This document shows, piece by piece, positions 2,337-18,699 of a stretch of DNA of 29,482 nt. Positions within the stretch are counted from its first letter, which is position 1, and each line of letters begins with the position of its first letter. The notes beneath the pieces are model-generated. The model saw only the letters and a program-made list of their open reading frames with translations, was not told the origin of the DNA and made no database searches. The translations under genes were made by a program, and so were the position numbers. The DNA is from a bacterium (GTDB taxonomy: Bacteria; Bacillota_I; Bacilli_A; Mycoplasmatales; Mycoplasmoidaceae), in assembly GCA_017645255.1 (NCBI GenBank), contig JAGCPI010000026.1, positions 1 to 29,482 of the forward strand, written 5' to 3'.

Positions 2337-3713
2337 ATGAAAAGTAATAAGAAACACCATGGTCACGTTAATCCTAATAGCAAGCAAAAACAACCAAATA
2401 AGCAATTAAACCAACCAACTAATTCTCAACCCAATTTAGCATTAGATGCTAATAATATCCAACCAACTAATACTGCATCAGTTGTTCAAGATTCTAAGCA
2501 AACTAAAATAGTAACTAATAATGAAGATGAAAATCTACCCGTAGTTAGTGATGATCAAACCATTGCTAACATCATTAATGAAAAAAACGAAGAAACAAAT
2601 AAGCATGTACCATTAGAACCAACTGATGATTTAACATTGCAAAATAAAGAAAAAGAAGCACAAGTTGCTCAAACACCAACTAACGAAGAACCAATCCCAG
2701 TTTATAAAGAAGTGCATATTAATGCTGTTGCGAAACCAAAGAAATTAGGCATTGTCATTGTGGAACACAATGCCCAAACAAAAATTAAGGATTTAATGAT
2801 TGGACTTGAATCAGCCCAAGGCTTTAGCAATGATGATATTAATATTTACATTTGGGATGACTATAGCACTGATAACTCAAGAGCATATGTTGCTGGCTTA
2901 AGCAAGCGGTTTGAAATTCATTACATACTTAATGAAAATCAAGAAGGAGTAGTGTGTGCAAGAAACAACATGTTGAAATGAGTAGATGATGATTACATCA
3001 TCTTTATTGATTACCGGGACGAAATTGTCGCTCCTGCATTAAAAGAATTCTTTCAACACTACAATAAGAATGACTTTATGATGTTGCGACGAAACATCAT
3101 GCACTCCTTAAGCAAACAAATTGTTGATGTGGGCGTTTATCATGATAAAGGTAGCAAAGCTGCTACTTTTGTTACCAAAACTCCTTATTCATTTGTCACT
3201 GGTATTTTTGTGGCAAAAAGTATTTACCAAAAGGTTCGCGATCTAATTACTCAAAACTATGAATATACCAAAGATATTCGGTTTTACGAAGATATGGTGG
3301 TTTATCCATTTTGAGTTTATTATGCAAAAACACCGTGCTTCCTTGATTCATACTATAACTACAACATCATGGGTCATGACTGATATTTATTAACTGATGT
3401 ATGCAAAGAAGAACAACACCAAAATTCTTTAAAGGCAATTTATGCCATTGATAAGTTGCAAAAAGATGCTGGCATTCACGACGATGAATTTGCTGGTATC
3501 AAATACGTCATGGATATTAGATTAATTAATACATACTTTAAAACTGCAAATGCTAAGGAAAAGAAAGATACTGATAAAAAAGTCCAAGAATTAATGGATG
3601 AATTTATTAAGCCAGTTGCTAATCCTCCAGCATTACTTGAAAAAGATAAATCAAAACTGCGATTTATTTCTAATTTATTCTTGCAACGAATGTACCGCAT
3701 TATTCATAAATAA
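2337..3713 (+). CDS. Family 2 glycosyltransferase with disordered N-terminal extension
   Basis: This 458-codon protein is read through TGA Trp codons at 2979, 3312 and 3381. An AAAGGAAT ribosome binding site precedes the ATG; a nearer upstream ATG is out of frame. Residues 1-130 are hydrophilic, Asn/Gln/Lys/Thr-rich and probably unstructured. A GT-A fold follows: 'KKLGIVIVEHN' (first strand), 'YIWDDYSTDNSR' (the nucleotide-binding DDxSTDNS motif), 'VCARNNML' (ARNxG-like), 'YIIFIDYRDEI' at the usual DxD position, and 'RFYEDMVVYPF' matching the late ED motif. There is no transmembrane segment, so it is a cytosolic sugar transferase, perhaps for glycolipid or capsule synthesis. The DxD is unusual: D-Y-R-D replaces the common D-A-D-D, so metal binding may be altered. 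The acceptor and donor cannot be told from sequence. Confidence 0.85.
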
Positions 3714-3733
3714 ATAAAGAAATCACGAAGAGA

Positions 3734-3766
3734 AAATATGAAGTTAATTGCTTCATATTTTTTTAT
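3734..3766 (+). terminator. Terminator after the glycosyltransferase gene
   Basis: A 10-bp stem AAATATGAAG/CTTCATATTT with a short loop and a following T-rich tail lies 21 nt after the stop codon. Confidence 0.9.
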
Positions 3767-3782: not shown

Positions 3783-3786
3783 TAAT

Positions 3787-3809
3787 TTCACCCCCATGAA
3801 GGAGGTGAA
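3787..3809 (+). promoter_or_regulatory. 5' leader hairpin enclosing a perfect Shine-Dalgarno
   Basis: TTCACC (3787-3792) can pair with GGTGAA (3804-3809), and CC/GG pairs inside it. This would sequester an unusually complete Shine-Dalgarno, AAGGAGGTGA (3799-3808). A second, weaker AAAGGA lies at 3808-3813, nearer the ATG at 3822. The predicted transcript begins at or just before the hairpin. Translational control is an inference. Confidence 0.4.
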
Positions 3810-3821
3810 AGGAAAAGAAAA

Positions 3822-4286
3822 ATGACTTGAGAAGAACTACCAATTACCAAAATTGAACAAGTAATTGGCTATGAATTTAAAAATAAAGACTTGCTAAGAC
3901 AAGCATTTACTTCAACGTGGTATTGATATGATAAAACTGGTCATGACCATAATTTACCATACTTTATTGGAAATGCGATTATTAAAGCCCAACTTAAATA
4001 TTTGCACAATCACAAGCAACTAAACGATGAGGAATTTAATGAAATAAATAAACTTTATTACGTTGCTTGACATGACATCATAGAAAAACTAGGTTTTAAT
4101 GATTACATTATTAAAAGTAGTAAAGATGGAATTAATCCTAGACAAGATTATTATGATTTAGGTAATATTTTCCCCTTACTTGTGTGTGCAGTTTATTTTG
4201 ATCAAAACCAAGTACGAACCAATAAAGTAAATGAGATCGTAACAAAAATAATAATGCAAGGAAAGGAAGAAAAACAAAATGCTTAA
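3822..4286 (+). CDS. Catalytically degenerate RNase III-like domain protein, small subunit, copy 1
   Basis: This 154-codon protein is read through TGA Trp codons. It follows the RNase III N-terminal domain end to end. 'IEQVIGYEFKNKDLLRQAFT' (residues ~10-29) matches the family's 'LExxIGYxFxxxxLLxxALT'. 'HNLPYFIGNAII' matches 'HNERLEFLGDAVL'. 'LGFNDYII' matches 'LGLGDYLL'. 'LGNIFPLLVCAVYFDQ' matches 'LADAFEALIGAIYLDG'. The catalytic acids are replaced: the FLGD Asp is Asn, the LEF Glu is Tyr, and the second-motif Asp and Glu are Asn and Pro. It should therefore not cut RNA. There is no dsRBD. Its stop overlaps the start of the next gene in ATGCTTAA, suggesting translational coupling and a joint complex. 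It is closely related to the gene at 5654-6130. The family assignment is by remote motif match, not a search. Confidence 0.75.
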
Positions 4287-5505
4287 TAACCAAGCAATTG
4301 AAGAAATTGAACAAATAATTTGCTATCATTTTAAAGATAAGCAATTATTAGTTAATTTGTTTAATAAAGATTCGCAAATTAATCATCAATGATTAATTGA
4401 TGGTGAAATAATATTCGAAAATACCTTACATGATTTAATTGATAAAGTGTTGCCTGTTTCTAATTCAACTTCGATGGAACAACAAGAAATTTTTAATTAT
4501 CGAAAAGAATGATTATTGCAAGATGAACCATTTTTTTATTATCAATTTAAACGGTTAGGACTAACAAAATACTTACCATTTGATGGAAATGATTTAAATA
4601 ACGCAAAATTAGTATACCAATTTGTTTTTTTATTATTTAACGCAATTGCTCTTGATAGTAAGTTGAATCAACAAGCAATTGAAATTACTTTTAGCAAATT
4701 AACTTATTTTGCTTATTGAAAAGAAGCAATTAAGAATCATGATCATGCTGATTATTTAGATCAATTTTTTAAAGTCGATTGAGATTTTGCTACCCGAAGA
4801 ACTCCATGTTGCAAAAATCTCATCATGGAAATTAATTCTTCATTATTGACTACTTATTATGAACAAGATGCTCTTGAATTATATTCTTATCTTTATCATT
4901 GCTTTATTGATGTAACCGAAAAATCATTTGATAATGATGAAAGATATAAAGATTTATTTTCCAATGTTGATTTTAATCAAGATTTAATTGCCCAATTTGA
5001 AGAAATTACAACTGCTAAATCATTAAGTACGGGCTATTTATACTTGCATGATGAATACTATTGATATTGTTTAGTAATGGTTGATAAGTTTGAATATGCT
5101 TGCTTTGCTCGCAGCGAAAAGAAAGAAGAAGCTAAAAAACAAGCCGTGATTGAATTTTTAAAATTCTACCAAAAACCAATGAGCAATCAATTATCAACAA
5201 ATGATAATATTCATCTTACAATATGAAACGCTTTTAATTGAATCAAAATTTCTTTAGATTTTGAAATTTTTCCAACTAACAACGCATTAAAATTTGACTT
5301 CAAGAATAAGAAAGCAAACCACTTAAAAGCGGAATTAAATGATGACAATATTTTTACTTGATCAATTTTTCAATCAAGAAAAAATCAAACTAAATGTACG
5401 TTGATTATTGCAAAATGTCCGGTTGCTTTTAGTGCCAATGGTACTAATGAAATTAATGCATTAACTAAAACCTGTGAATTACTAATTAAGCACTATACTT
5501 GCTAA
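4279..5505 (+). CDS. Degenerate RNase III-like protein with dsRNA-binding domains, large subunit, copy 1
   Basis: This 408-codon protein starts at the ATG overlapping the upstream stop (ATGCTTAA), with AAGGAAAGGAAG just upstream. Residues ~8-140 resemble the RNase III domain ('IEQIICYHFKDKQLLVNLF', 'WLIDGEIIF', 'LGLTKYLPF', 'VYQFVFLLFNAIALD'). The FLGD position is G-E, and the second-motif Asp and Glu are Gln and Phe, so no complete active site remains. Residues ~233-298 are a dsRNA-binding domain, ending in 'ARSEKKEEAKKQAVIEFL', which keeps the KKxAK RNA-contact motif. Residues ~318-407 look like a second dsRBD ('AFSANGTNEINALTKTCELL') that lacks those lysines and may serve protein contact. 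The region between (~146-230) is unassigned. It is probably the RNA-binding partner of the small subunit. A terminator follows. Confidence 0.75.
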
Positions 5506-5533
5506 TATCCATTTTACAAAACCTGACAAGAAT

Positions 5534-5566
5534 AAATATGAGATGCAAAAAAGTCTCATATTTTTT
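5534..5566 (+). terminator. Terminator of RNase III-like module 1
   Basis: A 10-bp stem AAATATGAGA/TCTCATATTT, a loop of about 10 nt and a following T run lie 28 nt after the stop. Confidence 0.9.
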
Positions 5567-5601
5567 CTTATCTATCTTAAGTTAAATAACTTATAACAAT
5601 T

Positions 5602-5607
5602 TATAAT
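5602..5607 (+). promoter_or_regulatory. Candidate -10 box of RNase III-like module 2
   Basis: TATAAT lies 46 nt upstream of the start at 5654, in the AT-rich gap after the module 1 terminator. An AAAGGAG ribosome binding site (5641-5647) follows in the leader. Unlike module 1, no leader hairpin over the ribosome binding site is seen. Confidence 0.5.
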
Positions 5608-5653
5608 TAATTTAAGATACTGAAATTACATGACAGTTAAAAAGGAGAATTAA

Positions 5654-6130
5654 ATGGAATGAGATGAATTACCAATTGCTAACATTGAAAAAACAATTGG
5701 TTATAGTTTTCTTGATAAAGATCTTCTTAAACAAGCATTTACTACAGTTTGATATTGATATAAGAAAACTGGTTATGACCACAACCTACCAAATTATATT
5801 GGTAACGCCATTATCATGGATGAAGTTGATGCTTTAGTTAAAGAAGGTAAATTAACTAATGAACAAGCGAATGAAATTAAAACTAAATTTTATGCCAAAT
5901 GACACCAACTAATGGTTGACTTAGAATTTGATACGTACCAAATTAAACTATTTCCTAGTCCTGATGATGAAAATGAACGGCAAGAATATTTTGATGTTGC
6001 TAACATTTTCCCATTACTTATTTGTGCAGTTTATTTTGACCAAAAGAAACAATGCACTGATGAAGTTAAGCACGTTGTAGACACAATTTTAGGAGTAAGA
6101 AAGGAATTTAATTTTGATTATTATGCTTAG
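5654..6130 (+). CDS. Catalytically degenerate RNase III-like domain protein, small subunit, copy 2
   Basis: This is a 158-codon paralogue of the gene at 3822-4286. About 38 of the first 54 residues are identical between the two, including WYWY, KTG, DHNLP and IGNAII. The ATG has AAAGGAG 6 nt upstream. RNase III helices are present ('IEKTIGYSFLDKDLLKQAF', 'NLPNYIGNAII', 'VANIFPLLICAVYFDQ'). The same catalytic losses occur as in copy 1: Asn for the GD Asp, and Asn and Pro for the second-motif Asp and Glu. Shared loss in both copies means the inactive state is old and kept, not decay of one copy. The middle (~residues 85-115) is more divergent and acidic. The stop overlaps the next start in ATGCTTAG, the same arrangement as in module 1. 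Confidence 0.75.
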
Positions 6131-7304
6131 AAACGATGATATTGAAAAAGTAGAAACCATTATTTGCTTTCCATTTACCAAAAAGCAATTATTAGTTAAT
6201 CTATTTAATGCTAACAAACCTTATTCACAACAAGCCATCAATAATGGTCAAGAAATTTTTAAATCACTATTGCAATTAGTAATTGCTAATGATAAGCAAA
6301 TTAATAAGCAAGAACAACAAGAATATTATGATGATTTTTTAAGTCGAATTGGTAAGAATAGATATTGAGTCAATCAATTAAATAAACTTGGTTTAGCTAA
6401 GTATTTACCAAATGACGATGAAAATAAAATTGATTTTGTTTATTGCTTAATTGATGCCATGGACAATGATGTGGCTCATGACCAACATAAATTATTAACT
6501 GCTTTTAAAAAATTAATCTACTATGATCACTCATTAAATAATCCATTGTTCATGGATTATAACGAACTAGATTGAAATTATTTATTAACTTCTAATTACG
6601 GCAAAAATTTAACGTTAGAAATTACCTGTCCAAGATTTGTCACTTATCATCACCAAAATTTAGGCGAATTGTATAGTTATTTATATTACTCATATATTGA
6701 CCTATTTGGTAAATATGCTGATGATGATGTAAATCTAAAAGACATTTGGACTACGATTAATTTAAATAAGAATCCAATTAACCAATTTAACCAAATTTGC
6801 ACTGAACATCAATTAAATGTTGGTACGTTCTTTTTAAAAGATCAATATTATTGATATTGCGTTAGCTTTGTTGGCAAATTTAAATATTGCTTTGCATCCA
6901 AGAGTGAAAAGAAAGAAGATGCTAAAAATGCATCAATTATGCAATTCTTAACTTATTATCACGATAAAAATCGTATGCCATTAGATTTAAAGGACCATAA
7001 TCATAAAGAATTAGCATCCTTATTTAGTCATGTCCAAACCCAACTTGGTTTACCGTTTGTTAATGAAGACGAATTAAAGAAGATTGCATGAGCAAAAGTT
7101 AAAGCAACTAGTTTAGTTCATGAATTAAATAAGAATGACTTCTTTACTTTATGCATCTATCATTATGATAAGAAACAATCTAATTGTACTGTGTGCGTAA
7201 CGGGATGTGAACAAGCATTTAGTGCAAATGGTAGTGGGGAAACAAATGCCCAAGCTGCTGCTAACCAACTATTAATTAATTATTGCAAAGATTTTAATAA
7301 ATAA
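6123..7304 (+). CDS. Degenerate RNase III-like protein with dsRNA-binding domains, large subunit, copy 2
   Basis: This is a 393-codon paralogue of the gene at 4279-5505. A TTG at 6114 is in frame, but the ATG at 6123 matches the conserved ATGCTTA overlap and is preferred. Residues ~7-135 are RNase III-like ('VETIICFPFTKKQLLVNLF', 'INNGQEIFKSLL', 'LGLAKYLP', 'DFVYCLIDAMDNDV'). The FLGD Asp position is Gln and the second-motif Asp is Cys, so no intact acidic centre is seen. Residues ~218-285 are a dsRBD ending 'SKSEKKEDAKNASIMQFL', with KKxAK kept. Residues ~305-390 are a dsRBD-like domain ('AFSANGSGETNAQAAANQLL') without the lysine pair. The two large subunits agree best in the dsRBD and around 'LYSYLY'. 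It lies in an operon with the gene at 5654 and is followed by a terminator. Confidence 0.75.
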
Positions 7305-7323
7305 TCATTAATCAAAATTAAAG

Positions 7324-7355
7324 AAAATATGAGCCTTAAAACTCATATTTTTTTC
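7324..7355 (+). terminator. Terminator of RNase III-like module 2
   Basis: Stem AAATATGAG/CTCATATTT with a following T run lies 20 nt after the stop codon. Confidence 0.9.
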
Positions 7356-8401: not shown

Positions 8402-11400
8402 TTAATCAACAGTATAAGTAGGACCAGGGATGTTCATGTAATAATAGTTAGAATAATAACTAGCGTATGGAGTAGTTACTTGAGCACAAATCCGCATGTT
8501 AGTAATTGATGAAGTATTAATACCATCAATAGTCGAAGGAACTACTTCAACACCACCATAGCCATTTTCATAATCATAGTTGTAATTATTAATTCATTGA
8601 GAAGTAAGTGGAAAGAATTCTTTTAATGTTCACGAACTAGTGGAATTCAATAATCCATTTTCGACAGGTAAACTATATTTATTATTTTCTCCACCCGCAT
8701 TTTTATTCATTGCTTTATAAATTGATGAGTAAATTGTATTGTAACTAGCTAATGATGATCATTGCTTAGCATTATAGAATGAAACATATCAGTTCACCTT
8801 ATATTCATTACTGTTAGTATTAAAGTCTTTATAGGTAGCTGATAATGCTTGACCATTTTGATAAATGTTTAAACTTAACGATGGGTAAGTTTGTATATTA
8901 GTTCCGTTTCCTTGATTGTCAGCATACATTCAAAGATTATAACTATTTAAGAAATAGTATTCATTGGCTCCACCACTATCTTGCATGTAAAAATCGCTAT
9001 TTATTGCATTAGCGTTATTTAATGTAATGTTAATAACATAATTACTATTATTACTTGAATCAATTGTTATTGGATTAGTGGTAGTAGTTTGTTGAGTAGT
9101 GCCAACATCATTATTAGTTCAAGTAATTTTGGCATAGTATTCTCCCCCATTTGTAACAGAGAATGGACAATACGGATAATCAAAATAAGTATTGCCAATG
9201 TTTTCATTTGAATAGTAGGTAGCCAATGGTGTTGAAACACCTTCTTCGTATCAAGTTATTGAATAAATTGAATACAAACTTTGTCTAGTTAAAGCAGGAT
9301 TAGATAATGTTAAACAAGCATTACTACCATAATTATATGTATATGTATTACCATTTTGCTTAATGTAATCATTAGCATTATCATTGGAGTTTAAGCCACT
9401 AACTGGCACTATAGTTGGATCAATTTGGTAAATAGTTAAAGTATTTGAATAAGAAACAATTGAGTTATAAACATATTTTAAGCGAATATTAATCGTTCCT
9501 GTTTGACTAGGGGTATAACTTCACAATAATGATTGACTAGTTAGTGGGTTACCATTATTATAATTTGTTCAAGTTCCACCATTAACTTGATATTGATAAG
9601 TAACTTGTACATCATTACTGCTTACTAAAGAATTTCCATTTTGTGTAAAATTACCATTTAAAACAATTGCGTTATCATTAGTTACAACATCAACTGAAGG
9701 TGAGTTAGTTGAATTAGTAGGAGTTGCAACGAATTGGATTTTTCCTGTTGGTACACTTGGATCAAAGTGAATAACATTACTTACAATTTGCACTGCTCCC
9801 ATTTGGGTTTCGCCTGCAACCATTCGGTAGTAAATGTTACTATCTAACGTAACTTGTAAGGATGGGCCAGTAGCATTATCAACATTTGTTCAAGTCGTAC
9901 CATTAGTACTAGATTGCCAAGTATAAGTAGTTGTTGATGGGAATGATAAAGAAGAATTACTTGAATCCAAAGTTACTTTTTGACCATAAGTACAATAATA
10001 AGTGCCTTTAACAAGATTAAAATAATTAGTGCTACTTAAATTAATTGATGCTTGTTCAGGAGTAAAAGTAAGGGTGTTAGTGTCAATGCTATTGCCATTT
10101 TGACTCATACTTAAATAGATTGAAATTGGTTCTCATTCAGTGCTAGTCGTGCCGTAATTACTGTTATATTCTGAAATTACATTATTTTCAAAATTAACTA
10201 AATCACTTGTACTAATTGGTAACACAATGGAATTTGTTTTAGCATCATAGTATGAGCTTAAACTATTAAAAGTGCTAAGTTCATAAGAACCGATTTGAAG
10301 ATTAGAATAATCTTGGTTGGTGATGTAAATCGTTCCACTTAATTCGCTCAGCAATTTAGAGTTGGTGGTAGCACTACCAAATTGACTTAACGAAATAGTT
10401 AAGTCAACACTAGCTGGAGTAGTTGACACTAATGCTCCTCAAGTTTTACTAGAAGTAAATTCATTTTGATAAGTACTATTAGTAAAACTAATGGTAGGAG
10501 TAACTAAATCATCATTAGCACTTAAAACATTGGAATAGAATAGTTCACTTGGATTATTTGCATCAACTATTTCTAAACGATAAGAATTATTATTTGATTC
10601 TTCTTTATTAACGGTATATGAAGCTTCATTAGCAAGTGAAGTTAAAGAAGTTAGTTCACCAGTTTGATTAGGGATGTTAGTTCACGATTTACCATTATCG
10701 CTTGATACTTGTCAGTAATAATTAGCATTAGTTCAATACGAAGTACCTGCAGTAAGTTCAATGGTGGAAGAACCACCATATTGAACTGCACTTGGATTTC
10801 AAGCAATTGTTGCATATTGACACACAACTTGGTAACTAGTACCATTGTTACTAATGGCATTTCCACTAGTTGTATAAACTACATTACCATTTGAATTGTA
10901 AATATTTACACTTACATTTCATAAACCTGGAGTAACATCAAAAGTATAACTTCAAGAAGAAGATTGACTTAAATCAAGTTGGTTGGAGGTAACAGTTTGG
11001 GAATAATTATTTGGATTATTAAAAACATATTCAACATAGTATTCGCCACTACTAAAACTTGAAGCAGTTAAATTACCACCACTACTTGAATAAAGCGAAA
11101 GAGTAAAACTCACTTTTCCTCCATTACTTGCTTCAATGTCAGTATATCCATTTGTAGTAACTGAAGTAGCATCACTTGAAGTACTTAATGCATAGTCACT
11201 AATTGCTAATGGATTATTAGCTTGTGAAGATGAACTTGTTGAACCTGATGAACTGTTTGAAGAATTAGTTGTAGCAGTTGCAGAGGTTCAAATTCAAATT
11301 ACTTTTGAATAATATGTACCAGTACTGTTACTAATTTCACACACAAACATATCACTGCCAGTAATGGCACCATTTCAAGTATATGTTTGACCAGTTCCCA

Positions 11401-11848
11401 ATACAGTACCATTTTGATTAATTAAATTAGCAACTGCTTCAGTATAACCATTTGTTCCACTTGGTGCATATGAACCAGAACTGCTAGAATTAAGACTATA
11501 TCACGTGTAAGTACCCGTGATGTTTTGATTTAAAGAAAATGTGTAACTAGCTTGATTAGCAGTTGAAGATTGTCAAATACTATAGACTGAGTTCATTTCA
11601 GAACTATCTTGGCTAGATAAACCTTGTCCATCAATTGATTGCATCATTTGGTTAAATGAACTTTGTGTAACAGTAGCTGTATTGGAACTGACGTTAGTTC
11701 CTACTAAATTATTACCTGTGATAATATTACTTGTTGGGGTTGATGATGATCCACATGATACTACACACGCAGGAATAATACAACAAATTGCTGCTACTCC
11801 AAAAGTCGCACCGATAATTTTCCAAATTTTCTTTTTATTATTTTTCAT
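8402..11848 (-). CDS. Large Ig-like-repeat surface lipoprotein
   Basis: One minus-strand frame of 1148 codons is read through many TGA Trp codons. The start ATG (11846-11848) has AAGGAAA about 17 nt upstream. The N-terminus is 'MKNNKKKIWKIIGATFG', then a hydrophobic core, then 'IIPACVVSCGSSS'. The VVSC lipobox predicts lipidation at Cys32 and export to the outer face of the membrane. Several Ig-like or PKD-like beta repeats follow, with signatures such as 'YYWQVSSDNGKSWTNIPN', 'YTWQSSTNGTTWTNVDN' and 'VTYQYQVNGGTWTNYNN' (roughly one per 100-150 residues). Composition is Ser/Asn/Thr/Tyr-rich. The signal peptide is close to those of the three lipoproteins upstream, but the body is different. 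It is likely an adhesin or antigen; the ligand is unknown. Confidence 0.85.
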
Positions 11849-11881
11849 AAATATAATTTTTTAAAATTTCCTTCCAGTTTA

Positions 11882-11887
11882 ATTATA
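11882..11887 (-). promoter_or_regulatory. Candidate -10 box of the large lipoprotein gene
   Basis: TATAAT on the minus strand lies 33 nt upstream of the ATG, with an AAGGAAA ribosome binding site in the leader. The -35 is weak. Confidence 0.5.
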
Positions 11888-11931
11888 AATCAACTAATTA
11901 AGATTTTTATTTACTGCAAAAACACCTGGCA

Positions 11932-11964
11932 CAAAAAAGATAATGCTTTTTTGAGCATTATCTT
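11932..11964 (-). terminator. Terminator of lipoprotein paralogue 1
   Basis: An 11-bp stem AAGATAATGCT/AGCATTATCTT with a T run in the minus direction lies 48 nt after the stop at 12012. Confidence 0.9.
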
Positions 11965-12011
11965 GGTAATGATTGCAAACTAGAAAAGAATAAATAACTT
12001 AATTAATTTAT

Positions 12012-13523
12012 CTAATTACTTGCATTAATAATGGCATTTGGATTTTGATATAGTGGATATAGACCATTATAAACTCCAACATTAAAATAATATTTACCTG
12101 CTGGAACTGTTATTGTAAATGCTCAAGCATTTTCATTTGACAATGGAAGCATTTTGATAATTTCAGTTTGATTATAAACTGAACTAGATTCAGTTTCATC
12201 ACTTTGTAAACTTCATATTATGTAGTAATCAGTATTGGTAAAATCACTAACATCAAAATTATTAATTTTTAAAGTAAAAGTAAGTTGGGAATTAACTTTA
12301 ACGTTATATACTTCTTGTACATCAGAATTAGTAGTTGCTTTAAGGGAAGTATTAACTGTACACTTTGCATTCGCAATCTTTAATGGATCATAGTTTTTAA
12401 CACCAACTTCAAATTCATTACTGTTGGAATTAGAAATTGAATCTAAATTTAATATTTGCCCATTTTGATTAAGAATTACAGCTTCCATGTCTGCATATGA
12501 TGTGTTTCAGGTAATACTTTGGTTTCATGCATCCATATTACTTAAATTCGTTGCTAAATAAACTGGAGCCGGATTTACTCCTTCAATCGTATTTGAATAA
12601 TAACCCCCATTTCAGTTAAAGTTGTAAAGAATATAATATGGATTAGTATCATTAAAGTCTTGATAACTTAATGGTTCATTATTACCATTTAGCATGCTTA
12701 AATTAAAATCAATTTTCGTGTTATTTGGAATTACAGTACTGCTAATATAAGTATCTTTACCTGTACTTTCAATGGTGGTAATACTTTGACCATTATTAAC
12801 CAATTCATTGATGCCATAAGTTGTATTACCTAAAGTATTAGTGGGATCTTTTTGTTGTAGTCAAGTTACTTCGGAATAAAAAGTATTATTACCATTATTT
12901 ATTTTGCAAAAGTAAATGGCATCGTTTAACATTGCACCATAATTAAATTGATAAGTAGAACTAGTTGCATTAGCAATTGCATTTGATTGTTTAGCTAATG
13001 CAATCATAAAATTAATACCACTTGCTTTTACTGGCAATGTACTTTGACTATTATAAATACTTAGAGTAGACTTAACAATTTCGCTACCAAAGACGTTATA
13101 TAAACTTGTAACTGGTACTTGGTACCATTGATAAGTATACATATTAGAATCAGTGCTTAATGAAATTGTATATTTACTATTTGTTTCATTTAAATAGTAA
13201 CAAGATACTCAAGGAAATGTTAAGTCTTCTTGATAATTAAATAGAAGGTCACTAGTAGAATAATTACCAGTTTGATTGCTATTAATAGTTTGTAGTGTTG
13301 CAGCTCCATCAACATTAGTTGCAATTAAACCAACATCATTTGTTTTAGGATTTGGATTGTTAGTAGTTGACGTTGAAGATGATGAAGAAGAATTAGCATT
13401 TGAGTTTGTATCATCTGTTGAACTTGAACCACATGACACTACACACGCAGGAATAATACATGCAATGGTAGCTATTCCTGCTAAGCCACCAATAATCTTT
13501 CAAATTTTTCTTTTATTTTTCAT
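12012..13523 (-). CDS. Tandem lipoprotein paralogue 1
   Basis: This 503-codon protein (TGA as Trp) has the N-terminus 'MKNKRKIWKIIGGLAGIATI' followed by 'ACIIPACVVSCGSSS'; the VVSC lipobox predicts a lipidated, exported protein. A Ser/Asn/Thr linker of ~40 residues follows. The body shares three blocks with the paralogues upstream: 'YQWYQVPVTSLYNVFG', 'LNDAIYFCKINNGNNTFY' with 'SEVTWLQ' (~residues 190-215), and C-terminal 'AVILNQNGQIL' with 'LTFTLKINNFDVSDFTNTDYY'. I do not recognise the family. No Shine-Dalgarno is seen before the ATG. The signal peptide and upstream region are nearly identical to those of paralogue 2, so the block was duplicated recently. It is the most divergent of the three in the body. 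Confidence 0.85.
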
Positions 13524-13655
13524 AATTTATTATTTTTATATTTTTAACTACGTATTTTAATTTTATAAAAACAACTTATTTTTAAATAAAATAAATAGTG
13601 ATTTTAGAAAAATTTAAAATTACTTGGTTATTCTCTTAATAAAATACCTGATTTT
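13430..13655. repeat. Direct repeat, copy 1: signal-peptide coding end plus promoter region
   Basis: About 226 bp nearly identical to 15073-15300. It covers the lipobox and signal-peptide codons of lipoprotein paralogue 1, the ATG and the AT-rich upstream region, which contains a TATAAAAT-like -10 at 13559-13567. Scattered substitutions increase towards the outer end. Confidence 0.85.
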
Positions 13656-13689
13656 TGTCATTAAACTTACTTAAATATAATCAAAGTTA

Positions 13690-13721
13690 ACTAAAAATTA
13701 TAACGCTTTAATGGCGTTATA
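13690..13721 (-). terminator. Terminator of lipoprotein paralogue 2
   Basis: Stem TATAACGC/GCGTTATA with an A/T tail in the minus direction lies about 35 nt after the stop at 13756. Its sequence resembles the terminator of paralogue 3. Confidence 0.85.
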
Positions 13722-13755
13722 TTTGGTTGTTTATTGTGAATAAATACTTTATCTT

Positions 13756-15168
13756 TTAATTAGTTGCGTCAATAATATATGAAGCGTTAAGGTCTGATAG
13801 AACAATTGGAGTAGAACCATTTTCAATTCCAATTGAAAAATCACTTTGTCCACTTGGTGCATTAAAAGTAAATGTTCAAGATGACGCATTTGACAATAAA
13901 ACAATGCTTTCTAATTCATCTTGAAACGTATTTGGATTTTGGACATACCAATTAATGTAGTAATCACTATTAGCAAAATCTTTATAAGTTAATTTATTAA
14001 TGTTTAGTGTAAAAGTAAGTTTAGTACCTGGTTTAACATTAATTTGGTAAGCATTTTCACCAAATGAATTTGTGGTAGCAACTGTTTTAGCAGTAGTTGA
14101 TAAAGAGATACTGGTATTAGATAAATTTAATGGATCATCATTACTTATATTCATAGTTATATAACTATCATCAGCTGAATTAGGGGCAATAATTTGTCCA
14201 TTTCGATTCAAAATAGCAACTGATACACCATTATTTAAAATATTTACATTATAAGTATAATTTCATGCATTACTATTACTTAAGTCAAATACTTGATATT
14301 CATTTGCTGAATCTAATTGACTGCAAACATTAAAAGTATATAAAGCATAATAATTTTCATTTGTAAAATTATCACTTGTCATTTCATAATTATTCGAATC
14401 AGCCACTGATAAATTTAATGAAACTTTCGTATTATTAGTTATATTTATGGTGTTAGTGTTAGTGCTTTCTTGATTTTGGCCATTATTGGAAGTAACTGCT
14501 AACGTGTAAGATGAAACATCTAATGGATTAAAGGGAGTTTTTGCTTGCAATCAAGTTACTTGGGAATAAATGCTATTATTACCGTTGATAATTCTGCAAA
14601 AATAAATTGCGTCATCTAACGTTACACCATATTTGAATTGGTAAGTAGGTGAATTCGCACCATTAATCATATTTGAATTGATTGCTAACGAAGTAAGAAA
14701 GGAAATGGCACTTTCATTTGCTTTAATAGAACTAGGATAGCTTTTAGCTGTTGCCACATAAAAATTATCAGCTGCAATTCCAAAATCGCTATAAATAGTT
14801 TTAATAGGTACTTGATATCATTGATAACTATAAAGATTAGAATCAGTTGAAAGTGAAATTGTGTAATTAGTATTTGGTTTATTCAAATAATAGAAATTAA
14901 ATCAAGGGATGCTGACCGTACTATTAGCTTCTCCATAAAAATAAGTAGAACTAGTTGAACCATTTTTAGTATCTTCTTGCGTTGCATTACCATTAACACT
15001 GGTGGATACTAAATTGGCATCGTTTGTTGCTGGATTAGGATTAGTGGTACTAGTAGGTGGGTTAGTCGATGATCCACATGACACTACACACGCAGGAATA
15101 ATACATGCAATGGTAACTATTCCTGCCATTCCACCAATAATCTTTCAAATTTTTCTTTTATTTTTCAT
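13756..15168 (-). CDS. Tandem lipoprotein paralogue 2
   Basis: This 470-codon protein has a signal peptide 'MKNKRKIWKIIGGMAGIVTI' ending in 'CVVSCGSS' (VVSC lipobox). Shared blocks with paralogue 3 are strong: 'SPTYQFKYG', 'LDDAIYFCRIINGNNSIY' with 'SQVTWLQAKTP', 'NPLDVSSYTL', 'EMTSDNFTNENYYALYTF', then 'GVSVAILNRNGQIIAPNSA', 'NDDPLNLSN' and 'LTFTLNINKLTYKDFANS'. It is predicted to be surface-exposed. No Shine-Dalgarno precedes the ATG. Its own promoter block and terminator suggest separate expression. Its relation to paralogue 3 is closer in the body, while its relation to paralogue 1 is closer in the signal peptide and promoter. This is a mosaic pattern that suggests gene conversion. Confidence 0.85.
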
Positions 15169-15300
15169 AATTTATTATTTTTATATTTTTAACTACGTAT
15201 TTTAATTTTATAAAAACACTTTATTTTTAAATAAAATAAATAGTGATTTTAGAAATATTTAAAATTACTTAGTTATTATCTTCATAAAATACTTATTTTT
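15073..15300. repeat. Direct repeat, copy 2: signal-peptide coding end plus promoter region
   Basis: Second copy of the block at 13430-13655, in the same orientation and about 1.64 kb away. The region upstream of lipoprotein paralogue 3 (from 16911) does not share it. Confidence 0.85.
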
Positions 15301-15334
15301 TACCATTAAGTTCAATTAATTATCATTTAATTTA

Positions 15335-15370
15335 CTAAAAAATATAACGCTTGCAAAGACGTTATATTTT
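15335..15370 (-). terminator. Terminator of lipoprotein paralogue 3
   Basis: An 11-bp stem AAAATATAACG/CGTTATATTTT with a T-rich tail in the minus direction lies 32 nt after the stop at 15402. Confidence 0.9.
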
Positions 15371-15401
15371 GTTATATAAAAGCATTAATTTTATTTATTA
15401 A

Positions 15402-16910
15402 TTATGAATTGCTGCTGGAACTAGTCGAAGCACTAGAAGCATTAATTATTCAATTACTGTTAGTTAAATTTAAATTTATTAAACTTGATCCATTAGTAAT
15501 AACTATGGAAAAATTACTTATTCCACTTGGGGCGTTAAAACTATATGTTCATGAAGATGCTTGTGATAAGGGAACAATACTGTAAATTTCATCAGCGTAG
15601 GTAGTATTATTTTGCACGTATCATTCAATGTAATAATCAGTATTCTTAAAATCATTGGAGTCAAACTTGTCAATATTTAAAGTAAAAGTAAGTTTGGTAT
15701 TAGGTTTGACTTTAATTTCATTTGCACTTTCGCCAATAGAATTAGTTACTGGGGTGCTTGATGCAGTGGTACTTAATGAGACTTGAGCATTAGCTAAATT
15801 TAGTGGATCATTATTAGTAATATCCATTGTTAGATAACTACTATTAGCTGAATTAGGAGCCATAATTTGACCATTTTGATTCAAAATAGCCACTGATACT
15901 CCGCTGTTTAAAGTGCTAGCATTAAATGTATAATTTCAAGCACTACTATTATTTAAATTAAAAATTTGGTAGATATTAGTTGATGTTAATTCACTAAAAA
16001 CATCAAAGATATATAAAGCATAATAATTTTCTTTAGCAAAATCATCACTGGTCATTTCATTATTACTGCTATCAGCCATTGATAAATTTAGTGTTACGTT
16101 AGTGTTATTGGTAATACTTAAGGAATCATTAATTGGATTTTCTTGATTTTTATTTTGATCAGAACTAGCACTCATACTGTATGATGAAACATCTAAGGGA
16201 TTAGAGGGAGTTTTTGCTTGCAGTCATGTTACTTGGGAATAAAACGTGTTAGTCCCATTGGTAATTTTGCAAAAATAAATGGCATCATCTAAAGTTGTTC
16301 CATACTTAAATTGATAAGTAGGTTTAGTGGCATTTGGAATAGCAGTTGAACTGGCAAGTGGATGCGGAGTAAACATCGCAAATGTCGGAGCAGTTACATC
16401 TGACACCGCTGTTGAACCTGATACTAATGACGCAAGAAATGACACCCCACTAGCGTTCGCTTTAACAGCCGCAGGATAATTAGTACTAATTGCCTTATAT
16501 AAATTATCATCAGCAATCCCAAACTCACTATATAAAGTACTAACTGGCACCTGGTATCATTGGTATGTATAGCTATTAGAATTAGTCGAAAGGGAAATCG
16601 TATAAGTACTATTTTGCTTATTTAAGTAAACAAAATTAAATCATGGTAAATATCCGGCTGGATCATTACTATCAAAAAAATATTCATAGGAATTAGAGAC
16701 ATTTTTACCACTTTGCACCGTGCTATCACCACTAACACTAGTAGTTACTAAATCTGATTCATTTGTAGTTGGATTAGCAATAGTTGGAGTAGTTGAACTA
16801 GCATTTGCCGAAGATCCACAAGAAACTACACAAGCTGGCACAACACAAGATAGTGCAACAACTGCAGTCATGGCACTAACAATCTTTCAAATTTTTTTCT
16901 TATTTTTCAT
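15402..16910 (-). CDS. Tandem lipoprotein paralogue 3
   Basis: This 502-codon protein has the N-terminus 'MKNKKKIWKIVSAMTAVVAL' then 'SCVVPACVVSCGSS' (VVSC lipobox), predicting export and lipidation. Its body is closely related to paralogue 2: 'YQWYQVPVSTLYSEFGIADD', 'LDDAIYFCKITNGTNTFY' with 'SQVTWLQAKTP', 'AILNQNGQIMAPNSA' and 'LTFTLNIDKFDSNDFKNTDY'. It has an extra ~24-residue segment before 'KPTYQFKYG' (16341-16412), absent from paralogue 2 and GC-richer than its surroundings. The upstream region differs from that of paralogues 1 and 2, so its regulation may differ. Function unknown; probably a surface antigen. Confidence 0.85.
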
Positions 16911-17120: not shown

Positions 17121-18656
17121 TTATTTGCAGCACTTGCATTGACCGCATTCGCACTTGCCAGATCCACCACAGCATTCGCATCAATTCATTGCTTTCTTAA
17201 CGTCTGCTGCAAAGTTTGGATCAACCTTGGCAAAGTGATCTAGCATTCTTACAATGCTTTGCTTACGTGCTAGTTTCAAACTACCAGAAATGTTATCAAC
17301 GAAATCTTGATATTCAGTTCCACCTTGTCTCTTTAGAACTTGGATGAATGCTCTTGGTTGTGAGTAATAGTCTTCATCTTGGTCATAATAACCTGGCGTA
17401 AACTTTTCTTCAATTTCAGCTGATAAGTCATCATATGGCTTAAATTCGTAGTTAGCTAGACTGTTTGGTTGATAATTGATTCCATCATGTAGGTGAGAAT
17501 TGTTTGCCATTGGGCCGTCAGCCATGTAATTGTAAATTGGGCAACCATGTGGACGGTTAACATCTAGTTGCATGTAGTTTGGACCAATCCGGTAACGTTG
17601 AGTGTCACTGTAAGAGAATAGTCTTCCTTGTAACATCTTGTCGCTACTAAAACCAATACCTGGAACAATATTAGCAGGACTTAGTCCAGCTTGTTCAACT
17701 GATTCAAAGTAGTTTTCTGGGTTGCGGTTTAATACCATTTCTCCAACTTCAATTAGTGGGAAGTCTTTGTGTGATCAAACTTTAGTTGCATCAAAAATGT
17801 TGTAACGGTAATTCTTAGCTTGTTCTTCCGTCATTACTTGGATGCAAAGTTTTCACTTTGGATAATCGCCTCTTGCAATTGCATCATATAAATCTTGCTT
17901 TGCAAATTGTGGATTTTCACCAGGAATTCTTGCTTGTTCTTCTTTGTTCAAGTTGCGAATTCCTTGTTGACATCTTCAGTGATACTTAATGAAGAACCGT
18001 TCGTTCTTATCATTAATGAAGGTAAAGGTGTGGGTTCCATAACCGTGCATGTGTCTGAAACCATAAGGGATACCCCGGTTACTAAATAGAATAAATACTT
18101 GGTGTAAAGATTCAGGGCATAGACCTCAGAAGTCTCATTGAGCGTCTGGGTTCTTGCAGTCAGTCTTTGGATCCATCTTTTGGGTGTGAATGAAGTCTGG
18201 GAACTTCTTAGCATCCCGAATGAAGAAAACTGGGGTGTTGTTACCAACAATATCTAGGTTTCCTTCTGTAGTATATAGCCGAATAGCAAAACCACGTGGG
18301 TCTCTTACTTCATCACTAGAACCTCTACTACCAGCAACAGTTGAGAACCGTGCAAATACTTCAACTGGCTTTGCTTCAGTAAATACTTTTGCGTACGTGT
18401 ATTTCTTGATTTCTTCAGTGTTTGTGGCTACAAAATAACCAAATGCTCCGCCACCGACAGCGTGAACCACTCTTTCAGGAATTCTTTCCCGGTCAAAGTG
18501 GGCTAACTTTTCAACGAATTGATAATCTTCAAGTAATGCAGGACCTTTTGGACCAGCAGTCTTAGTGTTATCATCGTCAACAACTGGACAACCGTTATTG
18601 TTTGTATAAACGTGTTTTTCCTTGTCGTTCGTGTAAACTTGTTTTTCCTTTTCCAT
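17121..18656 (-). CDS. katA: Monofunctional haem catalase with a cysteine-rich C-terminal tail
   Basis: This 511-residue protein converts hydrogen peroxide to water and oxygen and is cytosolic. It shows all catalase landmarks: '[13 protein letters not shown]', the catalytic His in '[18 protein letters not shown]' (His65), the catalytic Asn in '[13 protein letters not shown]' (~139), and the haem-ligand Tyr in '[17 protein letters not shown]' (~349). Length and motifs fit small-subunit (clade 3) KatA. The ATG at 18656 gives a family-like start; an upstream ATG at 18680 would add eight residues without a better ribosome binding site. Two oddities are seen. The N-terminus repeats 'EKQVYTN' and 'EKHVYTN'. 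The last ~20 residues are '[20 protein letters not shown]', with eight Cys. It is followed by its own terminator. Catalases are exceptional in Mollicutes, so gain by transfer is likely. Confidence 0.97.
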
Positions 18657-18699
18657 AAATAAAATTCTTTCTCTTACCATGTAAATGGGTAAGGATTTT

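Follow-up and report, generated by a model that had tools for sequence, protein, structure and literature searches.

Two tandem units of overlapping genes for RNase III-like proteins with lost catalytic residues, a possible non-cutting pair in a mycoplasma-like bacterium

Among RNase III relatives, Mini-III consists of an active RNase III domain without a dsRNA-binding domain (dsRBD), and the mitoribosomal proteins mL44 and mL57 are, we assume, RNase III-like, the paper cited next for them writing 'exonuclease III'. In passages of that paper, mL44 and mL57 of the yeast mitoribosome are described as a vestigial nuclease-family pair bound to each other and to an rRNA expansion (PMC11345376), and a passage of another states that mL44 homologues are not found in bacteria (PMC4519308). 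Non-catalytic RNase III domains, partly in pairs, are also described for trypanosome KREN/KREPB and for KREPB4, 5, 9 and 10, which carry a zinc finger and RAM and whose endonuclease pairs have one live subunit (excerpts of PMC12936278 and PMC9508840); according to an excerpt of the 2022 paper, the use of several RNase III heterodimers that combine catalytic with non-catalytic parts has seemed, so far, to be confined to kinetoplastids (PMC9508840). RNC1 of plant chloroplasts likewise has catalytically inactive RNase III domains (section of PMC8708148), two of them within one chain, and is a group II intron splicing factor (PMC11241334).

In the window, by which we mean the whole 29,482-nt stretch of DNA that was analyzed, positions 3822–7304 read with TGA as tryptophan contain two tandem units, each encoding a small protein, S (154–158 aa), and a large one, L (393–408 aa), with an S–L gene overlap of 8 nt in both. 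The tandem two-gene module reported by the first-pass annotation is thus confirmed.

3730..3764, forward strand: terminator-like hairpin 3' of the upstream glycosyltransferase gene (z −6.6)
3786..3810, forward strand: hairpin with the S1 Shine-Dalgarno in its 3' arm (z −1.3, for the surrounding 91 nt)
3822..4286, forward strand: S1, 154 aa, RNase III domain only; D45 to N, D114 to N, E117 to P; TIGR02191 E 4.7e-5
4279..5505, forward strand: L1, 408 aa, RNase III-like with C-terminal dsRBD-type domains; 8-nt overlap with S1
5530..5567, forward strand: terminator-like hairpin and U run 3' of L1 (z −5.8)
5654..6130, forward strand: S2, 158 aa, RNase III domain only; D45 to N, D114 to N, E117 to P
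6123..7304, forward strand: L2, 393 aa, RNase III-like; 8-nt overlap with S2
7321..7354, forward strand: terminator-like hairpin and U run 3' of L2 (z −4.5)

Because a terminator-like hairpin ends the upstream glycosyltransferase gene, S1–L1 looks like a separate unit; the hairpin at 3786..3810 is a possible, weak candidate for an autoregulatory site of S1. Chance reading frames or a pseudogene were ruled out by the four long frames under one code and by conserved relatives. Homologues of S2, L2, and L1 (87, 82, and 88% identity) are reported with one longest contig size, 10,927, and S2- and L2-type homologues share another, 5,970; as the equal sizes suggest, homologues in each set presumably lie on the same contig. 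Six of the seven S proteins end in [NHY]A, while 12 of 14 L proteins start with ML (9 of 14 with ML[KNRS]), and these protein ends fit an 8-nt overlap, which would place the overlap in relatives as well. Five relatives (P0018–P0022), possible orthologues of L1, join L1 at 98/98 in a tree of the domain, a placement that the full-length tree does not settle. Relatives retain both units, and the presence of two diverged copies side by side suggests a real function.

Beyond these relatives, an L profile had no match in 385 genomes of the order of G002 and weak matches alone in 298 genomes of the order of G631 (G937, G939, G950, and G965). Nothing was found with it in genome contigs or IMG/VR, where the patterns contained Trp, which a TGA genome could hide. 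An S profile gave seven weak matches in 95 genomes of the family of G631, the best of which (G814, 7.9e-4) was that genome's ordinary rnc. A phage or plasmid protein was also considered and rejected, L2 being without a tblastn match in plasmids or phages; PHROGs matches were weak (E 0.018 or worse).

The predicted fold of L comprises an RNase III domain and dsRBD-type domains (pLDDT 90). For S, RNase III homology comes from sequence, structural support being weaker: S1 and S2 match the NCBIfam RNase III family TIGR02191 (E 4.7e-5 and 0.0017), with a best score of 23 bits, far under the 166.25 cut-off of curated RNase III. S1 resembles L1 (BLASTP E 3.6e-4), and S2 and L2 have no significant BLASTP similarity (E 0.57). 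The RNase III fold claimed for all four proteins is supported by these results. The domains of L1, mapped from L2 by alignment, and those of L2 are as follows.

4279..4770, forward strand: L1 RNase III-like domain, residues 1–164
4966..5184, forward strand: L1 dsRBD, residues 230–302, with the YYWYC hairpin and SEKKEEAK
5296..5502, forward strand: L1 C-terminal dsRBD-like domain without KKxAK
6123..6563, forward strand: L2 RNase III-like domain, residues 1–147 (predicted structure)
6564..6755, forward strand: L2 residues 148–211, strand-strand-helix (predicted secondary structure), probably a decayed dsRBD from its position relative to RNase III-B, a related enzyme described below
6756..6974, forward strand: L2 dsRBD, residues 212–284, with an invariant LxDxYYWYC hairpin (0 of 300 shuffles reach its score against RNase III-B)
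7086..7301, forward strand: L2 C-terminal dsRBD-like domain, residues 322–393, alpha-beta-beta-beta-alpha, without KKxAK (predicted structure; weak sequence support, 3 of 300 shuffles reaching the score)

A dsRBD and a second dsRBD-like end in L, as initially annotated, are therefore borne out by the predicted fold; the KKxAK motif said to be kept has one lysine replaced in all 14 L proteins. The aromatic residue at the position of Escherichia coli F42 is kept in S and absent from L, so that L may fail to dimerize in the standard way.

Neither S nor L has the catalytic acid set of bacterial RNase III (E38, E41, D45, D114, and E117). All seven S proteins carry N at D45, N at D114, and P at E117; all 14 L proteins have Tyr or Phe at E117, and none has Asp at D45. 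By comparison, in 44 ordinary rnc sequences D45 is Asp in every case and E117 is Glu in 43, with one gap. The register of helix alpha3 in L differs between an alignment that places Gly42 on Gly44 and the alignment with RNase III-B, and in both E117 is lost and Asp is missing from D45. Replacement of catalytic acids in all four proteins thus holds, D45 and E117 being lost from S1, L1, S2, and L2, although other catalytic acids may, from the alignments, remain in L. In E. coli, sections of one paper describe E117K/A/Q mutants as having lost cutting while keeping dsRNA binding, and rnc70 as still acting on lambda N mRNA (PMC8708148).

Compared with the described systems, S and L share the fold of bacterial Rnc, but they have lost catalytic residues and score far under the NCBIfam cut-off; S, like Mini-III, has no dsRBD, yet it is without the acids and falls outside the definition of Mini-III. 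mL44 and mL57 are mitoribosomal proteins. The VIA match of L to mitoribosome chains, presumably mL44, is at the level of fold only, and the mL44 endonuclease-domain family PF22935 gave no match in a Pfam scan at E ≤ 10 within HMMER filters. L differs from the KREPB proteins in having dsRBDs in place of zinc finger and RAM, the Pfam scan finding no zinc-finger family in S or L, and thus no U1-like zinc finger of KREPB type. Inactive domains lie in separate chains here, unlike in RNC1. No description of a dead RNase III pair in bacteria was found in the open-access papers searched, and S and L match no described bacterial pair in these papers or in the libraries searched, in line with the first-pass annotation, to which no such arrangement was known.

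The nearest relatives found for S and L are not ordinary rnc but what we label RNase III-B, an additional RNase III that appears to be active and ends in one or more dsRBDs; S matches it at P 9.2e-11 and L at 7.3e-10. It was found in five genomes of the same order (G950, G965, G964, G888, and G577, the copy in G577 being broken), two of which, G950 and G965, account for weak matches of the L profile; of ten genomes with matches in one search, G944, G814, and G936 matched through ordinary rnc, and G877 and G583 were also among the ten. Fourteen IMG/VR contigs also carry RNase III-B relatives, and the Ruminococcus albus plasmid pRUMAL01 has a more remote one. At L187, the one locus among the 14 contigs whose neighbours were read (the L187, L197, and L198 proteins are identical and count as one observation), the RNase III-B gene has recombinases and candidate defence genes of GmrSD/HEC-05 and HEC-07-like type in its neighbourhood. 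S scores 58–74 against RNase III-B and 27–47 against ordinary rnc sets; homology covers the RNase III domain and dsRBD of L and the RNase III domain only of S. The dsRBD Trp is common to 14/14 L and 11/11 RNase III-B, and a DSNW motif after the second signature is shared by two L (P0015 and P0016) and several RNase III-B. Against ordinary rnc, the L RNase III domain is marginal (2 of 500 shuffles reach its score) and its dsRBD gives no sequence signal against rnc dsRBDs (206 of 500 shuffles score as high). RNase III-B differs in keeping E38, E41, D45, D114, and E117 in all 11 aligned sequences. By eye, no S-like partner was seen around the five genome copies of RNase III-B in the frames listed there, for which the minimum length was 100 aa (80 in L167). 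In the RNase III tree, S, L, and ordinary rnc come out as one group apiece, and the RNase III-B sequences do not stay together (44/0); stem branches of 2.9–3.4 changes per column carry a long-branch warning, and we therefore draw nothing from the order in which S, L, and RNase III-B branch.

S and L probably descend, to judge from these sequence comparisons, from a mobile-type RNase III that, through duplication, reshaping, and loss of activity, gave rise to two proteins encoded together, an origin that the first-pass annotation did not name. The ancestor would have been an active enzyme of RNase III-B type with C-terminal dsRBD(s); one descendant would have dropped the dsRBDs to become S, the other would have retained and extended them as L, both would have lost residues needed for cutting, and the S–L pair would then have been duplicated in tandem. 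As products of overlapping genes, S and L would most likely dimerize by way of the RNase III domain of each, the dimer serving as a platform and the dsRBDs of L as contacts to RNA or protein, and together they would keep hold of a structured RNA or RNA–protein particle without cleaving it. We give a probability of roughly 0.55 to this reading, in which S and L have the RNase III fold but act as pseudoenzymes, likely a heterodimer holding structured RNA or RNP without cutting. A more specific form, which we regard as rather doubtful, is that a fully inactive heterodimer, which the lineage would have recruited from an RNase III of mobile elements and maintained as two diverged copies, is a stable RNP part, possibly of the ribosome, as a bacterial parallel to mL44/mL57.

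Since RNase III domains work as dimers, S, L, or both could instead be inactive subunits that dimerize with a working RNase III of the same cell, the mixed dimer nicking one strand or being restrained. Trypanosome KREN/KREPB heterodimers with one live subunit, KREPB6–8 with KREN1–3, offer a precedent (excerpts of PMC12936278 and PMC9508840), and of the 95 genomes in the nearest family, 83 have an rnc above the Pfam cut-off. However, the partner encoded alongside S is L rather than a live RNase III, of which the window has no copy, and we consider this arrangement unlikely.

It is likewise unlikely, in our estimate, that S–L is a protein scaffold that has lost RNA binding, its nuclease domains and dsRBDs turned into protein–protein modules. 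All four proteins are acidic (net charge −3 for S1, −14 for L1, −11 for S2, and −5 for L2), while 25 of 30 ordinary rnc proteins of the nearest family are net positive, and this acidity speaks against strong dsRNA binding, in the main reading as well. The short beta1–beta2 loop of the L dsRBD and the replaced lysine of KKxAK, a motif that one dsRBD has in altered form and the other lacks, likewise count against it. Acid loss can also cost binding, because the E. coli single mutants D45N and D114A bind dsRNA poorly, with weak activity in excess magnesium (Table 1 of PMC8708148). Loss of RNA binding nevertheless sits poorly with the two conserved lysines that open dsRBD helix 2 in L (14/14 and 13/14) and with the YYWYC hairpin, since no invariant run in L is longer than this part of the dsRBD.

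A function in defence or counter-defence, with the pair sensing or shielding dsRNA of viruses or mobile elements as a role inherited from RNase III-B, would agree with the IMG/VR and plasmid occurrence of RNase III-B and with the neighbours at L187. We hold it to be improbable: none of the four S and L proteins has a PADLOC-DB match at E ≤ 1, none of three RNase III-B sequences scanned matches PADLOC, no defence gene was recognized in the window, and the neighbours come from the single locus read among the 14. It is most improbable that L2 or an S2–L2 dimer still cleaves RNA through a metal site rebuilt with D104 and other acids, for although L has Asp at the D114 site in 9/14 and Glu aligned with E38 in 5/14 and E41 in 6/14 in the RNase III-B alignment, or with D45 in 3/14 in the other register, E117 is replaced throughout, D45 is never Asp, and neither S nor L supplies the full set.

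The published dead RNase III pairs that we found come from eukaryotes and organelles, with mitochondria and trypanosomes as the main sources. The finding draws attention, in addition, to an RNase III of mobile type that carries C-terminal dsRBD(s) and was on one occasion seen close to candidate defence genes. Because the bacterial pair has an active relative that can be identified, the route from a nuclease to a complex that does not cut becomes open to experiment, and the pair suggests that an RNA-cutting enzyme has here become a complex of two parts that holds RNA.

The module is real and unusual: two tandem pairs of RNase III-fold proteins that lack key catalytic residues. Each unit encodes a small protein (S; RNase III domain only) and a large, RNase III-like one (L) with C-terminal dsRBD-type domains, arranged as follows.

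2337–3713, + strand, GT2-type glycosyltransferase gene, upstream flank
3730–3764, hairpin with U run after the glycosyltransferase gene
3822–4286, + strand, S1
4279–5505, + strand, L1
5530–5567, hairpin with U run after L1
5654–6130, + strand, S2
6123–7304, + strand, L2
7321–7354, hairpin with U run after L2
7506–8231, − strand, metallo-beta-lactamase-fold gene, downstream flank

In both units, the S and L genes share 8 nt (unit 1, ATGCTTAA; unit 2, ATGCTTAG), and a purine-rich stretch lies 5' of L1 and of L2. For each of the three U-run hairpins, 0/200 shuffles folded as well; given their positions after the glycosyltransferase gene, L1, and L2, each S–L pair looks like its own transcription unit. 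A further hairpin just 5' of S1 (3786–3810) has a near-perfect Shine–Dalgarno sequence in its 3' arm; the hairpin could be a self-regulatory site, but this region folds only slightly better than shuffles (z −1.3). When the 17 window proteins were compared with the window by tblastn, no further S or L copies were found. The glycosyltransferase begins with ~130 low-complexity, Asn/Gln/Pro-rich residues.

We compared 7 S and 14 L sequences at the catalytic positions of Escherichia coli RNase III. D45 and D114 are Asn and E117 is Pro in 7/7 S sequences, while E41 is Asn in six and Tyr in one, and E38 is Asn in three (including both window copies) and Asp in four. In L, E117 is Tyr or Phe in 14/14, and the D114 site is Asp in 9/14, including L2, and Gln in L1. 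Residue assignment in the first signature of L depends on the alignment register: with Gly42 set on Gly44, the D45 position is occupied by Gln, Ser, Leu, or, in three sequences including L1, Glu; when aligned with RNase III-B, our label for a second, apparently active RNase III with C-terminal dsRBD(s), a gap spans F42–D45, and Glu stands at E38 in 5/14 and at E41 in 6/14. In E. coli, D45A and E117K/A/Q abolish cutting in vivo, E117 mutants retain dsRNA binding, and D45N and D114A bind poorly, with weak activity left in excess magnesium (PMC8708148). Taken with these mutant data, the residue losses make RNA cutting by S or L very unlikely; the mutants also offer a bacterial precedent, not a guarantee, for binding without cutting. 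The first-pass annotation had described S and L as RNase III-like proteins without key catalytic acids, and both the homology and the D45/E117 loss are well supported.

The homology rests partly on RNase III-B. Against an 11-sequence RNase III-B profile, L matched over 271 columns (P 7.3e-10, probability 96.5) and S over 137 (P 9.2e-11, probability 97). L, and likewise its dsRBD alone, scored above 300/300 column shuffles, as did S against a 4-sequence profile (all 300); the C-terminal domain of L was weaker, with 3/300 shuffles reaching its score. Residues 148–211 of L align opposite the part of RNase III-B that precedes the C-terminal dsRBD, so they are probably a decayed dsRBD.

TGA encodes tryptophan in the window: table 4 keeps all 17 listed genes open, including rpoB, rpoC, catalase, and nagB, and table 11 breaks most of them, with uS9 staying intact. 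By RpoC, which matched in 381 of the 395 genomes searched, the nearest genome found was G631 (0.9 Mb; 60% identity, 7 TGA codons within the match); further TGA genomes had 53% identity or less among the matches listed. Together, the code and this nearest relative mark the window, on sequence grounds, as Mollicutes-type, and the order of G631 is presumably Mycoplasmatales. Catalase is uncommon in Mollicutes-type genomes; the window gene (17121–18680, −) gives an HPII-like match and has a Cys-rich C-terminal tail. Four related large lipoprotein genes (about 30–58% identity) lie in a row at 8402–16910 (−), and the two scanned had no Pfam match.

Profile searches gave only weak matches and no clear ortholog of S in 95 genomes of G631's family or of L in 298 genomes of its order. 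The tree of 14 L sequences contains an L2 group of seven (support 100/99), an L1 pair (P0002, P0017; 100/100), and a separate group of five (P0018–P0022; 100/99) that joined L1 at 98/98 in the domain tree, a link not settled in the 14-sequence tree. Relatives of S2 (P0005), L2 (P0011), and L1 (P0017) type share a longest-contig size of 10,927, and P0007 and P0016 share one of 5,970, so the S–L layout is probably common to these relatives.

In the same 298 genomes, the S profile (E ≤ 0.01) matched ten, five of which (G950, G965, G964, G888, and G577) encode RNase III-B besides a higher-scoring rnc. The four intact copies keep E38, E41, D45, D114, and E117; three have Pfam RNase III domains plus dsrm, which occurs twice in P0025, and in P0026 Pfam recognises the RNase III domains only. 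An in-frame stop close to the first signature interrupts the G577 copy (L166, 5400–6500), which appears decayed. Among 59 genomes of G950's family, near-full-length matches to the RNase III-B profile were limited to G950 and the broken G577 copy, so RNase III-B is patchy in the order; the other 43 matching genomes scored at most 44 bits versus 565 and were taken for ordinary rnc. Relatives are encoded in 14/136 candidate IMG/VR stretches, and a more distant one (28% identical) on the Ruminococcus albus plasmid pRUMAL01. By sequence, the S–L module is close to a mobile-type, apparently active RNase III. RNase III-B type loci comprise L163–L167, L185–L198, and L199. In L187, three recombinase-like frames (one Pfam-confirmed) share the stretch that contains the gene; a GmrSD-type gene (PADLOC HEC-05, 4.7e-148) is nearby and a HEC-07-like gene (5.9e-8) adjoins it, both candidate defence genes. 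In G631 (L098) and three relatives (L097, L099, L102), ordinary RNase III sits inside a long open frame of 443–818 residues; the one scanned had RNase III at its C-terminal end and no Pfam domain in the remainder.

RNase III domains act as dimers, with F42 supplying the ball in their ball-and-socket junction; the residue at this position is aromatic in 7/7 S sequences, and L lacks such an aromatic in both registers. In E. coli, the G, D, and R mutants of F42 are inactive and the M and W mutants active (PMC8708148). An asymmetric dimer, with the ball on S and the dsRBDs on L, would fit. The most conserved part of L is the YYWYC run in the dsRBD hairpin, and all RNase III-B sequences share its Trp (11/11). 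In the KKxAK motif, earlier called kept, one Lys has become Glu/Asp; this change, a short dsRBD loop, and the net charges (S1 −3, L1 −14, S2 −11, L2 −5) all count against strong dsRNA binding.

We found no description of a bacterial dead RNase III pair in the open-access literature, in agreement with the earlier remark that none was known. The mitoribosomal proteins mL44/mL57 are two vestigial nuclease-family proteins bound to each other and to rRNA (PMC11345376). By the features tested, S–L belongs neither with these nor with the KREPB proteins; we infer a heterodimer that binds RNA and may work most like mL44/mL57 or, alternatively, like the non-catalytic KREPB proteins (PMC12936278, PMC9508840). 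Because of the acidic charges, short loop, and altered KKxAK, its target would be a specific structured RNA or RNP rather than generic dsRNA.
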